Shown here: positions 1,717-41,917 of the stretch, in pieces
Layout of the letters: each line of letters opens with the position of its first letter
Position numbering within the stretch: the first letter of the stretch is position 1
From: Flavobacterium sp. GT3R68
GTDB taxonomy: Bacteria; Bacteroidota; Bacteroidia; Flavobacteriales; Flavobacteriaceae
Assembly: GCF_007109225.1 (NCBI RefSeq)
Contig: NZ_VJZK01000004.1
Coordinates: 124,001-188,000, forward strand
Reading direction: 5' to 3'
Length of the DNA: 64,000 bases
Program-made: the position numbers and the translations under genes
The notes under the pieces: generated by a model
The model's input: only the letters and a program-made list of their open reading frames with translations
Database searches by the model: none
Told to the model about the DNA's origin: nothing

Positions 1717-2295
1717 TTATAGTGCCGAATTCAAATGTTTCAGCAATAGGTTAATAGCAATCCCTCTGTGGCTGATGGCTGCTTTCTCGGCCATGTCCAA
1801 TTCTGCGAAAGTTGCATGATATCCTTTTGGTTTAAAAATGGGATCATATCCGAAACCCTTACTTCCTTTCCTAGCAGCAGTAATTTCACCCTTGGCTATG
1901 CCCGTAAAAAGGTGCTGTTGGTTGTTTATATTTAATGCGATGACGGTTTTGAACTGGGCTTTTCTGTTGGATTCTTCCGAAAGCGCAACAAGAAGTTTAT
2001 CCATATTATCGTCGGCATTTTTTTGTTCACCTGCATAACGTGCCGAGTATACTCCAGGAGCACCATTTAAAGCTTCAACTTCGAGCCCAGTGTCGTCTGC
2101 AAAACAATCGTAACCGTATTTTTGAGTAACATAGTTGGCCTTCAAAATGGCATTTCCTTCAATAGTATCGGCGGTTTCGGGAATATCTTCATAACATCCA
2201 ATGTCTTCAAGGCTTAAGATTTGGATGTTCTCCGGAAGTAATTGCTGAATTTCCTGGATTTTATTTTTATTGTTGGAGGCCAAGACGAGTTGCAT
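1717..2295 (-). CDS. rdgB: Non-canonical purine NTP pyrophosphatase (RdgB/HAM1 family)
   Basis: Hydrolyses dITP, ITP and XTP to the monophosphates, keeping deaminated purines out of DNA and RNA. The 192-residue product has the normal length. Family signatures are visible: N-terminal substrate motif LVLASNNKNK, the metal/nucleotide motif DDTGLEVEALNGAPGVYSAR, and GFGYDPIF followed by the C-terminal SHRG motif. The start at 2295 is supported by a -7 element TAACTTTG at 2322-2329. It is a monocistronic-looking gene upstream of the DEAD-box helicase, with 162 bases between them. Confident call. Confidence 0.96.
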   Translation of the reverse strand: MQLVLASNNKNKIQEIQQLLPENIQILSLEDIGCYEDIPETADTIEGNAILKANYVTQKYGYDCFADDTGLEVEALNGAPGVYSARYAGEQKNADDNMDKLLVALSEESNRKAQFKTVIALNINNQQHLFTGIAKGEITAARKGSKGFGYDPIFKPKGYHATFAELDMAEKAAISHRGIAINLLLKHLNSAL

Positions 2296-2583: not shown

Positions 2584-2686
2584 GTATGGCATCTGAGGAA
2601 AGCTGTTTTAATGTATTATTTGAATGGCAGATTCGTTAAATAATAATTAAAAAATTCATTTACAATAAGTTAGGTAAATTTTTTTT

Positions 2687-2694
2687 TATCTTTG
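2687..2694 (+). promoter_or_regulatory. -7 element of small RNA unit 1
   Basis: TATCTTTG, an exact TAnnTTTG match, five bases before the conserved GTAG that begins each RNA unit. The same octamer occurs at the same place before units 3 (3114-3121) and 4 (3314-3321); unit 2 has the one-mismatch TACTTTTA (2888-2895). Confidence 0.7.
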
Positions 2695-2698
2695 AAGT

Positions 2699-2830
2699 GT
2701 AGTTTTGATTAATTACTTGAATATACCAATCTGCATTAGGAAATATTCAATAGTCAGCCAACCGAAAGGTGCAGTTGATAATAGTAAATCAAAACCACAA
2801 CTGAAGAGGTCTGAAAGGGCCTCTTTTTTT
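2699..2830 (+). ncRNA. Tandem structured small RNA, unit 1 (long form, about 132 nt)
   Basis: First of four tandem copies. Probable 5' end at the conserved GTAG, 3' end at the T-tract of an intrinsic terminator. Predicted pairing: closing stem P1 GTTTTGATT (2702-2710) with AATCAAAAC (2787-2795); stem P2 TTGAATAT (2717-2724) with ATATTCAA (2743-2750), whose loop holds CCAATCTG; small hairpin P3 ACC-GAAA-GGT (2761-2770); and terminator hairpin AGAGG/CCTCT with T7. There is no open frame of note. Seen directly: repeats, promoter, terminator and pairing. Inferred: that it is a transcribed trans-acting RNA. Relation to Rfam families Flavo-1 or 6S-Flavo is untested. Confidence 0.75.
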
Positions 2831-2887
2831 ATGCTATAAAAATTAGTTAAAGTGCTGGATTATATTTTTATACAGCAAAAAATATTG

Positions 2888-2895
2888 TACTTTTA
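2888..2895 (+). promoter_or_regulatory. -7 element of small RNA unit 2
   Basis: TACTTTTA, one mismatch to TAnnTTTG, five bases before the conserved GTAG start, the same spacing as in the other units. Confidence 0.5.
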
Positions 2896-2899
2896 TGAT

Positions 2900-3033
2900 G
2901 TAGTTTTGATTAATTACTTGAGTATTCATCTGTATAAGGGAAGATATTCAATAGTCAGCTATACTGAAAGGTATAAGGTGATAATTGTAAATCAAAATGA
3001 CAACTAGAGGCCTTGTATAAGGGCCTCTTTTTT
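2900..3033 (+). ncRNA. Tandem structured small RNA, unit 2 (long form, about 134 nt)
   Basis: Second copy, closest to unit 1. P1 TTTTGATT (2904-2911) pairs with AATCAAAA (2990-2997). P2 TTGAGTAT (2918-2925) pairs with ATATTCAA (2944-2951), an A-U of unit 1 becoming G-U. P3 is TATAC (2960-2964) with GTATA (2971-2975) around TGAAAG, a compensated replacement of unit 1's ACC/GGT. The terminator is AGAGGCC/GGCCTCT followed by T6. The paired changes against unit 1 support an RNA structure under selection. Confidence 0.75.
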
Positions 3034-3113
3034 ATGCATTTCCATAAAAATTTGAAATCTATTAATTAATAGTTAAAATGTTAATTTTCAATACCGTGAA
3101 TTCAATATTATTG

Positions 3114-3121
3114 TATCTTTG
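3114..3121 (+). promoter_or_regulatory. -7 element of small RNA unit 3
   Basis: TATCTTTG, exact TAnnTTTG, followed after three bases by the conserved GTAG. An ATAGTTAAAAT block about 45 bases upstream is shared with the unit 4 promoter, so the promoter was duplicated with the gene. Confidence 0.7.
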
Positions 3122-3124
3122 AGT

Positions 3125-3232
3125 GTAGGTTTTGATTATTGCTTTAATTTATCAATCTGTTTTTTAAGAAAGATTATTTACTGAACGAATCAAAATTGAC
3201 ATGAGAGGCCTGTTAAAAGGCCTCTTTTTTTT
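3125..3232 (+). ncRNA. Tandem structured small RNA, unit 3 (short form, about 108 nt)
   Basis: Third copy, shorter in the middle. TTTTGATT after GTAGG pairs with the later AATCAAAA; within it AATCT pairs with AGATT, and the conserved ATCAATCTGT segment is present. The P3 hairpin of the long form is absent. It ends in a strong terminator (AGAGGCCT, GTTAA, AAGGCCTCT, T8). Its promoter is a perfect TATCTTTG. Confidence 0.72.
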
Positions 3233-3313
3233 GTTGTCTTTTTTGTTTGGAATCAAAAATGCTAATAAATAGTTAAAATACTGAACTATAGATTGTTAAT
3301 CAAAAAATTATTG

Positions 3314-3321
3314 TATCTTTG
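3314..3321 (+). promoter_or_regulatory. -7 element of small RNA unit 4
   Basis: TATCTTTG, exact match, with a TTG 18 bases upstream that could serve as the -33 element. Confidence 0.7.
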
Positions 3322-3324
3322 AGT

Positions 3325-3431
3325 GTAGATTTTTGATTAATTATCTAATATATCAATCTGTCAAAAGAAAGAAATTAATAGTGAATCAAAATTTATCAAA
3401 ATCGGAGGTCTGTCAAACGGCCTCCTTTTTT
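3325..3431 (+). ncRNA. Tandem structured small RNA, unit 4 (short form, about 107 nt)
   Basis: Fourth copy, similar in size to unit 3. TTTTTGATT follows GTAGA and pairs with a later AATCAAAA; ATCAATCTGTC is conserved in the middle. The terminator has a G-rich variant stem (GGAGG/CCTCC) in place of the AGAGG/CCTCT of the other copies, a compensated change, with T6. The array ends 20 bases before the 3' end of the convergent NYN-domain gene, so this terminator may also limit read-through into it. Confidence 0.72.
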
Positions 3432-3451
3432 ATTTAATACTTTCAAGGAAA

Positions 3452-4234
3452 TCAGCTGAAGCGTAGTCGGACGTACACGTGTTTGATTCCTTTTTTGTCG
3501 GAATCGCGTTCGTCGATTTCCAGTATTTCGGTCAGGGATTTCAGCATCGGGGTCAGTTTGTTAAAACCATAATTACGCGGATCGAATTCGGGTTTTTTCT
3601 TCACGATAAGATTTCCTACATCGCCCAGGAATGCCCAGCCATCATCATCTCCAATATCTTCAATAGTAGATTCAATTAGTTCAATGGTTGGCAGATCCAC
3701 TTTGTTCAATGTTTTTGGGACTTCTTTTTTAGTACCCATAACAATTGCAGTATTTGATGCGGCTCTTTTGGGTGATTTTTTGCTGGTGGCGCCATCCAGT
3801 ACTTCAATGTAAATAAACCGATCGCAGGCAACGATAAAGGAATTTGGGGTTTTCTTTTCGCCAATTCCGATGACTTTCATTCCGGATTCCCGAAGGCGGA
3901 TGGCCAATCTGGTGAAATCACTGTCGCTGGAAACAATGCAAAATCCATCCAGTTTATCGGAATAGAGTAAATCCATCGCATCAATGATTAAGGCAGAATC
4001 TGAGGAGTTTTTTCCTACTGTATAACTGTATTGCTGAATTGGCGTAATGGCGTGTTCCAATAAAACGCTTTTCCAACCGGCAGCATTTGGCTTGGTCCAA
4101 TCCCCATAAATCCGTTTTGTGGTTGGTGTTCCGAACTTGGCAATTTCTTCCATCATTCCTTTTACATTCCGATACGGAACGTTGTCGGCGTCAATGAGGA
4201 CGGCAAGTTTTAATTCTTTTGTATTAGGCGACAT
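3452..4234 (-). CDS. NYN-domain (LabA/DUF88-like) protein with C-terminal OST-HTH/LOTUS domain
   Basis: Predicted PIN-like ribonuclease fused to an RNA-binding LOTUS (OST-HTH) domain. The NYN half carries the acidic residues expected of the active site (LIDADNVP near the N-terminus, IDAMDLLYS, and SSDSDFTRLA), and the last 75 residues form the OST-HTH (IELIESTIED to the end). I place the start at 4234 (MSPNTKEL, 260 residues) because the longer frame starting at 4261 begins inside a perfect -7 element (TATATTTG, 4259-4266). It converges with the small RNA array. Family function is known in outline only; the RNA substrate is unknown. Confidence 0.88.
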   Translation of the reverse strand: MSPNTKELKLAVLIDADNVPYRNVKGMMEEIAKFGTPTTKRIYGDWTKPNAAGWKSVLLEHAITPIQQYSYTVGKNSSDSALIIDAMDLLYSDKLDGFCIVSSDSDFTRLAIRLRESGMKVIGIGEKKTPNSFIVACDRFIYIEVLDGATSKKSPKRAASNTAIVMGTKKEVPKTLNKVDLPTIELIESTIEDIGDDDGWAFLGDVGNLIVKKKPEFDPRNYGFNKLTPMLKSLTEILEIDERDSDKKGIKHVYVRLRFS

Positions 4235-4258
4235 AGACTCTTTATTGAAATGGTTCTC

Positions 4259-4266
4259 CAAATATA
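4259..4266 (-). promoter_or_regulatory. -7 promoter element of the NYN/LOTUS gene (decides its start)
   Basis: Minus-strand TATATTTG matches TAnnTTTG. It overlaps the upstream candidate ATG at 4261, so translation must begin at the next ATG, 4234. Confidence 0.55.
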
Positions 4267-4290
4267 CAAAGTTTTATTGTGGAAAATGAC

Positions 4291-4358
4291 CTAGCCCTGA
4301 TGGAAACGGCATCCCACGCTTTTCGCGTGGATACAGTGTACAGCAGGAAACAGCTCCT
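4291..4358 (+). repeat. Interspersed structured repeat, copy A
   Basis: CTAGCCCTGATGGAAACGGC, then hairpin CCACGC-TTTTC-GCGTGG, then GGATACAGTGTACAGCAGG and AGCTCC. It shares flanks with copies at 14094, 37407, 41840 (inverted) and, more distantly, 59998. It lies in the short gap between the divergent NYN gene and the serine-palmitoyltransferase-like gene. Confidence 0.85.
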
Positions 4359-14088: not shown

Positions 14089-14093
14089 ATTCC

Positions 14094-14162
14094 CTAGCCC
14101 TGATGGAAACGGCATCCCACGCTTTTTTGCGTGGATATAGTGGACAGCAGGAAAAAGCTCCC
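14094..14162 (+). repeat. Interspersed structured repeat, copy B
   Basis: CTAGCCCTGATGGAAACGGC, hairpin CCACGC-loop-GCGTGG, GGATATAGTGGACAGCAGG, AGCTCC. It is nearly identical to copy A and starts five bases after the flippase stop codon. Confidence 0.9.
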
Positions 14163-14873: not shown

Positions 14874-15192
14874 AATCAATATAATTTGAGTTTTGCCTAC
14901 TCTTGAGCTTTTCGGCTTCCGCTTTATTTGATTTGGTATATTCAAGTAGCGTGCCAAAAAAACAAAGTCTGAGGAGCGTTTTTTATAATGGCGGTATAAT
15001 TATTTGATAATAAAACAGTTGCGTGTTTAATAATTTAATTTATTTTTGACTTTTTGATTTTTAAATTATGATTCGTTCATTAATACGCGGTTTTCATGAT
15101 GGTATTTCTTATTTTTATTACCAAAAAAATATAAATACTTTACTTTTTTTAAAATTTATGTATCTTTAAACTTTTAAAACAAAAAAATTATC
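14874..15192. other. Intergenic stretch between divergent genes
   Basis: About 320 AT-rich bases. It holds the TATCTTTA promoter-like element of the iron permease-like gene (15161-15168) and presumably the promoter of the secreted-protein gene, for which no clean -7 element was found. No other gene was seen. Confidence 0.6.
15161..15168 (+). promoter_or_regulatory. Probable -7 element of the iron permease-like gene
   Basis: TATCTTTA, one mismatch to TAnnTTTG, 24 bases before ATG 15193. Confidence 0.4.
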
Positions 15193-37357: not shown

Positions 37358-37406
37358 TGTAATGATTCGGTAAATTGACAAGACAGTGTTTTTATTGTTA
37401 CCAGGA

Positions 37407-37486
37407 CTAGCCCAGATAGAAACGGTATCCTTTTTCTGCTTTCTTTAAGCAGGAAAAGATACAAGTGAATAGCTGGAAATAGCTCC
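37407..37486 (+). repeat. Interspersed structured repeat, copy C (divergent arm)
   Basis: Flanks CTAGCCCAGATAGAAACGG and AGTGAATAGCTGGAAATAGCTCC agree with copies A, B and D, but the internal hairpin is different: TATCCTTTTTCTGCTT pairs with AAGCAGGAAAAGATA. Preserved pairing with changed sequence argues for selection on the structure. It touches the stop codon of the LolD-like gene. Confidence 0.82.
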
Positions 37487-41839: not shown

Positions 41840-41906
41840 GAAGCTATTCCTGCTATCCACTATATCCACGCAAAAAAGCGTGGGATGCCGTTTCTATCAG
41901 GGCTAG
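41840..41906 (-). repeat. Interspersed structured repeat, copy D (inverted)
   Basis: Read on the minus strand: CTAGCCCTGATAGAAACGGC, hairpin CCACGC-loop-GCGTGG, GGATATAGTGGATAGCAGG, AATAGCTT. It fills the gap between serC and serA in the direction of transcription and would be part of a serC-serA transcript. Confidence 0.9.
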
Positions 41907-41917
41907 TTACTGTAAGA

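Follow-up and report, generated by a model that had tools for sequence, protein, structure and literature searches.

A tandem array of predicted structured small RNA genes in Flavobacterium is preceded by a direct repeat shared with an RprXY-like operon

The sibling small RNAs (sRNAs) OmrA and OmrB of enterobacteria are under OmpR control. With their OmpR-family regulator and their action on the cell envelope, these siblings (both named in PMC11697453) resemble what we propose for the units of the tandem array described here from a Flavobacterium genome, but they are unrelated to the units in sequence and in host. A closer parallel in genetic layout is offered by the csRNAs of streptococci, which are controlled by CiaR through the motif TTTAAG-N5-TTTAAG and which, as described in PMC8186281, occur as several paralogues per genome, sometimes in tandem, and carry a direct repeat whose period is 11 bp. 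The csRNAs belong to another phylum and share no sequence with the units studied here; furthermore, their regulator and targets are proven according to that source (PMC8186281), whereas those proposed below are inferred. NsiR1 of Nostoc is likewise encoded by tandem sRNA genes with individual promoters and a shared motif, and its central copies are identical while the peripheral ones have diverged, a pattern that can be likened to that of the array; however, NsiR1 is portrayed as an RNA of about 60 nt present in 12 copies, HetR-dependent and heterocyst-specific (PMC9045159). Within the Bacteroidetes, the multicopy paralogous family FopS of Bacteroides represses SusC mRNAs and thus illustrates that multicopy sRNAs of this phylum can repress outer-membrane proteins (PMC11697453). 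Nine of its 14 copies are intergenic, four are antisense and one is 3'UTR-derived; the accessible text mentions no tandem array, and the FopS length of about 65-70 nt differs from the 109-163 nt of the units and their relatives, one truncated match aside (PMC11697453). Finally, Rfp18 of F. psychrophilum is a strongly structured sRNA that is conserved in the genus Flavobacterium and has a homologue expressed in F. columnare (PMC9723704). In structure and genus-wide conservation it is like the family presented here, but the accessible text of PMC9723704 describes neither tandem copies nor a regulator for it.

The array lies on the plus strand of a 64-kb window (the whole stretch of DNA that was analysed) and consists of four head-to-tail units at about 2698-2831, 2899-3034, 3123-3231 and 3323-3432, each composed of a promoter, a folded core and a terminator. 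This arrangement, with start-to-start spacings of 201, 225 and 200 within positions 2640-3433, is present as claimed in the original prediction, and so are the closing stem TTTTGATT/AATCAAAA and the G+C-rich terminator hairpin followed by a T-run, both found in each of the four units. A promoter of the TAnnTTTG type had also been assigned to every unit; it can be recognized at units 1, 3 and 4 as the −7 box TATCTTTG (2687-2694, 3114-3121 and 3314-3321, respectively), whereas unit 2 possesses the weaker box TACTTTTA (2888-2895). We take these boxes to be of the Bacteroidetes type. The predicted start of each unit is situated near GTG/GTAG. Units 1 and 2 contain a predicted three-way junction of helices P1, P2 and P3 and match our covariance model R1 (see below) with 109.4 and 123.6 bits; units 3 and 4 have lost the inner hairpin P3 and score 55.7 and 50.1 bits. 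Taken literally, the claim that there is no open reading frame in the units does not hold, since short TTG/GTG frames of 44 and 51 amino acids overlap units 1 and 2; its essence stands nevertheless, as coding is unlikely because the length of the relatives varies from 109 to 163 nt, and we rejected protein-coding units for this reason.

To the left, the array is flanked by a divergently oriented gene that we take to be rdgB-like (1717-2295, minus strand) and that is kept at the locus in relatives; to the right, a convergent, presumably NYN/LabA-like gene (3452-4261, minus strand) follows. At 2465-2557 on the plus strand, the window carries the remains of a small lipoprotein-like gene, of which several other genomes have an intact copy between rdgB and the array; the best match, 56% over 25 amino acids, had an E value of 3e-7 when 405 bases were searched.

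All four units fold better than their dinucleotide shuffles, with z-scores of −4.73, −4.19, −4.00 and −3.20 for units 1-4; for unit 4, two of the 200 shuffles fold as well as the natural sequence. We then used 138 of 147 model matches (the nine left out of the counts were weaker than E 1e-7, and several of them lay on the opposite strand) for a covariation analysis. The aligned relatives are 109-163 nt long, plus one truncated match of 94 nt, and 91.6% of the cells of the P1/P2/P3 junction and the terminator are paired. Thirty-four of the 40 base pairs are changed on both sides, and there are 378 double-change cells as opposed to a shuffle mean of 111.6; none of the 500 shuffles reached any of the five observed measures, numbers that have to be read with the provisos that an alignment fitted to the model leans towards structure and that kinship among the sequences also lifts such measures above shuffles. 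Sliding the pairing partners by one to three columns lowers pairing to 36-56%. When a hand-written structure was placed on a MAFFT alignment of 15 units made before this one, no more than one of 500 shuffles reached the observed value for four of the five measures, and 54 of 500 did so for the fifth (10 pairs changed on both sides). Collectively, the covariation at the sequence level supports a three-way junction followed by a terminator.

The original prediction had been unable to assign the units to a known class, and this is borne out by a comparison with the Rfam covariance models: none of them scores as high as its gathering threshold within the array, and the 13 matches obtained at an E-value limit of 10 all stay below that threshold (best E 0.17). 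The models for Flavo-1 (RF01705) and 6S-Flavo (RF01685) do not match the array; the only 6S-Flavo match of the genome is on contig C42. We therefore do not identify the units with Flavo-1, with 6S-Flavo or with any other family of Rfam 15. Flavo-1 does occur elsewhere in the window, at 4289-4354, 14092-14158 and 37405-37483 on the plus strand and at 41842-41908 on the minus strand, each time above the gathering score, and a DUF805b motif (RF02914; 42.1 bits) is found at 14894-14925 on the minus strand. A search of the accessible literature found no prior report of the array or of the GTTAA repeat described below, and the motif terms are absent from the accessible text of PMC3646045 and PMC6032018.

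A BLAST search over 40 genomes yielded matches in 14, the present genome included, with consecutive copies in two of them (G007 and G010); a few other matches in this set are short and possibly due to chance. Model R1, built from 15 units, finds four copies in the present genome at E values up to 1, which are the array units only, and, of 299 Flavobacterium genomes, identifies 91 as carriers of the family (E 0.01 or better) with 1-7 copies each. At least two matches are present in 37 of the 91 carriers, the maximum being seven. Among the carriers revealed by an exact-pattern scan are F. frigoris, F. xanthum, F. granuli, F. gillisiae, F. omnivorum and F. xueshanense. In 397 Flavobacteriaceae genomes, model R2 recovered, besides the array's own four copies, weak matches only (E 1e-4 to 1e-2, 30-41 bits; best E 1.1e-4), spread over 24 genomes including one Flavobacterium; we judged these to be near chance level. 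Hence, the family appears so far to be recognizable in Flavobacterium only, with the proviso that absences are not proven because the stricter filters applied above 40 genomes lose weak matches. Strong members were also seen on metagenome-assembled contigs labelled Lutibacter, Klebsiella pneumoniae and Sphingobacterium thalpophilum (loci L068, L082, L093 and L100), which are probably mis-binned Flavobacterium; the Lutibacter-labelled match, at 90.9 bits, may be such a binning error. When 398 genomes of the genus were probed with the tail gene of F. psychrophilum phage 6H, identity reached at best 73%, along part of its length.

We inspected the surroundings of 71 loci from 67 genomes, a non-random choice of mostly better-scoring R1 matches. 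In 47 of these loci, rdgB is the first or second left neighbor and is invariably oriented away from the RNAs; by tblastn, rdgB could be placed in 50 of the 71 loci. This tie to rdgB had not been part of the original prediction. Seven other loci have a gene on the right that is presumably pseudouridine-synthase-like, three lie beside a region that we take to be copper-ATPase-like and six near a gene that we take to be racemase-like. The distance between successive matches is 188-388 bp in 65 of 72 cases. Some copies within arrays are 94-99% identical and others only about 50-60%, and in a tree of 81 short units, in which 21 of the 78 inner branches are left open, the diverged subtypes recur across species; the window's own units 3 and 4 group together as sisters (96/89). 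The arrays of one to seven copies in other Flavobacterium genomes, together with the covariation, support the earlier suggestion of self-contained RNA genes duplicated along with their promoters. For the proposed dosage or specificity family, the near-identical copies and the recurring subtypes lend sequence-level support to both alternatives. Extra units away from rdgB were noticed at loci L108, L113 and L120, the two units of L120 being 3.5 kb apart.

Upstream of the promoters, we found a regulator-like sequence element that the original prediction lacked. A perfect direct repeat GTTAA-N6-GTTAA precedes 93 of the 138 units (75 of 116 after removal of near-duplicates), while spacers other than N6, in the range from 0 to 15, occur in 0-3 units each. 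In 90 of these 93 units, the perfect repeat ends 36-38 nt before the −7 box. Allowing up to one mismatch, the repeat is at its expected place in 111 of 138 units, and neither of two control windows yields it for any of the 138; three or more mismatches were counted in 13 of the 138. The repeats of the window are imperfect but occupy the same place before each unit: those of units 1 (2635-2650), 3 (3061-3076) and 4 (3261-3276) have one mismatch, and that of unit 2 (2835-2850) has two, its downstream half being intact. The sequence ATAGTTAAAAT, originally noted as common to units 3 and 4, is indeed present there as the downstream half of the direct repeat; the element is not confined to these two units, as a GTTAA repeat stands before all four. 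Genome-wide, at fixed spacing and with no more than one mismatch in repeat and box, six sites were detected against one for a backward control: one at an efflux operon, two at units 3 and 4, and three others. With the strict promoter-plus-repeat pattern, 30 sRNA-bearing genomes contain 107 sites versus three for the backward control. Several paralogous copies, each with a promoter and terminator of its own and with a shared repeat at a fixed distance, are among the marks of the multicopy sRNA families that response regulators control, and they are combined here.

Which protein might read this repeat? In a survey of OmpR-type DNA-binding domains in four genomes, two regulators were present in all four, one RprY-like and the other, as we take it, PhoB-like; one of these genomes (G002), in which a unit with a perfect repeat occurs, has only these two OmpR-type regulators. 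The best NCBIfam model for the former is RprY (NF051850) with 283.4 bits, the next reaching 163.9 bits; because this score falls short of the curated cut-off of 370 bits, we refer to the protein as RprY-like and not as RprY. Its gene forms an operon with that of a kinase, and in each of the four surveyed genomes a perfect repeat is present upstream of this operon. The same holds true for 28 of 30 sRNA-bearing genomes and for four of ten genomes of the genus without an sRNA match (backward control 0), and since these four carry the repeat, the regulator does not need the sRNA. The distance between repeat and promoter is about 28 nt at the RprXY-like operon, as opposed to 36-38 nt at the sRNA units.

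Further operons carry the repeat. It lies upstream of a TetR/TolC-type/EmrA-type efflux operon in 25 of 30 genomes, as recognized by a shared palindrome; the reading frames of this operon were read in two genomes, including the present one, and the cut-off of the EmrA model was not reached. The palindrome, of the type TTTAA-A/T-TTAAAC, overlaps the efflux promoter downstream of the GTTAA repeat (1156-1216 in locus L203; 3733-3794 in locus L206), a layout found in 25 of 30 genomes, and is a possible TetR operator. A repeat site also precedes a DUF5117/DUF4953 zinc protease (identified from the reading frames of three genomes and a domain scan in one), an L,D-transpeptidase in one genome and, as a triple repeat, a histidine kinase/OmpR-type operon in 4 of 30 genomes. 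Other sites precede operons that are presumably of the AraC type, metallo-beta-lactamase-like or additional TetR operons; these may be due to chance or be clade-specific.

Taking these data together, we propose that the array encodes multicopy trans-acting sRNAs belonging to an RprY-type stress regulon, comparable with the csRNAs, a reading of genomic sequence to which we assign a probability of roughly 0.55 and in which regulator and targets are inferred. Under envelope stress, the sensor kinase would drive an RprY-type response regulator from the OmpR family, which would bind the GTTAA direct repeat with its 11-bp period about 60 bp upstream of the start and activate the promoter. The RprXY-like operon, having the same repeat, would be autoregulated, and the EmrA-type efflux operon would be co-regulated, as would the zinc protease and the L,D-transpeptidase in some species. 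Each RNA would end at its own terminator and form a three-way junction with P1 as the closing helix; exposed loops would let it act in trans by pairing with mRNAs, most likely those that encode envelope or secreted proteins. Near-identical copies would serve dosage, while diverged subtypes would address different target sets. Envelope stress as the signal and envelope mRNAs as the targets are suggested by the co-regulated genes and by the analogies with csRNAs, FopS and NsiR1.

Other readings of the array have to be weighed against this proposal. A repeated sequence of variable copy number could consist of decayed mobile repeats or of cis-acting leaders or terminators of the neighboring genes, and in 15 of the 71 loci a same-strand reading frame starts within 300 nt downstream or overlaps, seven times the same pseudouridine-synthase-like gene. 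However, 51 of the 71 loci have their downstream gene on the opposite strand, and on this ground we rejected a cis leader or riboswitch despite these 15 cases; a mobile element, envisaged in the original prediction as hundreds of decayed copies, was rejected because the genome contains four. Covariation and the fixed promoter geometry also argue against units that are not RNA genes, so that we regard this explanation as most improbable. RsmX and CsrB RNAs are protein sponges. The highly conserved fold and the redundant copies would suit such a role, or that of a 6S-like decoy, in which the RNAs bind a protein and do not pair with mRNAs; on the other hand, the 6S-Flavo RNA of the genome is encoded elsewhere, the loops of the subtypes have strongly diverged, and P3 is missing from two of the four units, which makes this a distinctly improbable alternative. 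The family might also be the reported Rfp18 (or Rfp11, 13 or 15) of F. psychrophilum, multicopy in other species and controlling secreted metalloproteases via one stem-loop. Strong structure, conservation throughout the genus and the expressed homologue in F. columnare fit this idea, whereas PMC9723704, in its accessible text, does not mention tandem copies, and its main text gives neither sequence nor position of Rfp18. We think this identity rather unlikely, but Rfp18 may be the same RNA, and this is the main doubt over the novelty of the family.

With regard to the regulator, the sRNA repeats could be read by the PhoB-like response regulator or by a DNA-binding protein of another family in place of the RprY-like one. 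The PhoB-like protein is present in all four surveyed genomes, and its gene has one-mismatch repeats, and no perfect ones, upstream in each of the three genomes examined. In contrast, the RprXY-like operon has a perfect repeat upstream in 32 of 40 genomes, and so does a second RprY-related kinase/regulator pair in all four genomes in which it occurs. Because the perfect repeat precedes its own operon and the PhoB-like gene has one-mismatch repeats only, we favor the RprY-like regulator and consider a different reader of the repeat doubtful, albeit worth keeping in mind. An autoregulated kinase/regulator pair (locus L204), the first one found to carry the repeat, was dropped as a candidate, as it is present in only 4 of 30 genomes and the RprXY-like pair in all four surveyed ones.

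We could, with the odds finely balanced, be dealing with the RNA arm of an RprXY-type envelope-stress response of Flavobacterium: a tandem sRNA locus that can be expanded and whose copies each have their own operator, GTTAA-N6-GTTAA being an operator of the RprY family and the regulon a Bacteroidetes counterpart of Cpx or Cia. If so, copy number would set dosage, diverged subtypes would split the targets, and the small regulon would comprise RprXY itself, EmrA-type efflux, the zinc protease, the L,D-transpeptidase and the sRNAs. The family would add a new and well-supported entry to Rfam. Few sRNA families of the Bacteroidetes have a candidate regulator; the one presented here offers an operator-like repeat, a candidate two-component system and a natural range of one to seven copies, and it opens questions about the binding sites of RprY-type regulators, the tuning of a stress response by copy number and the mRNAs common to the subtypes.
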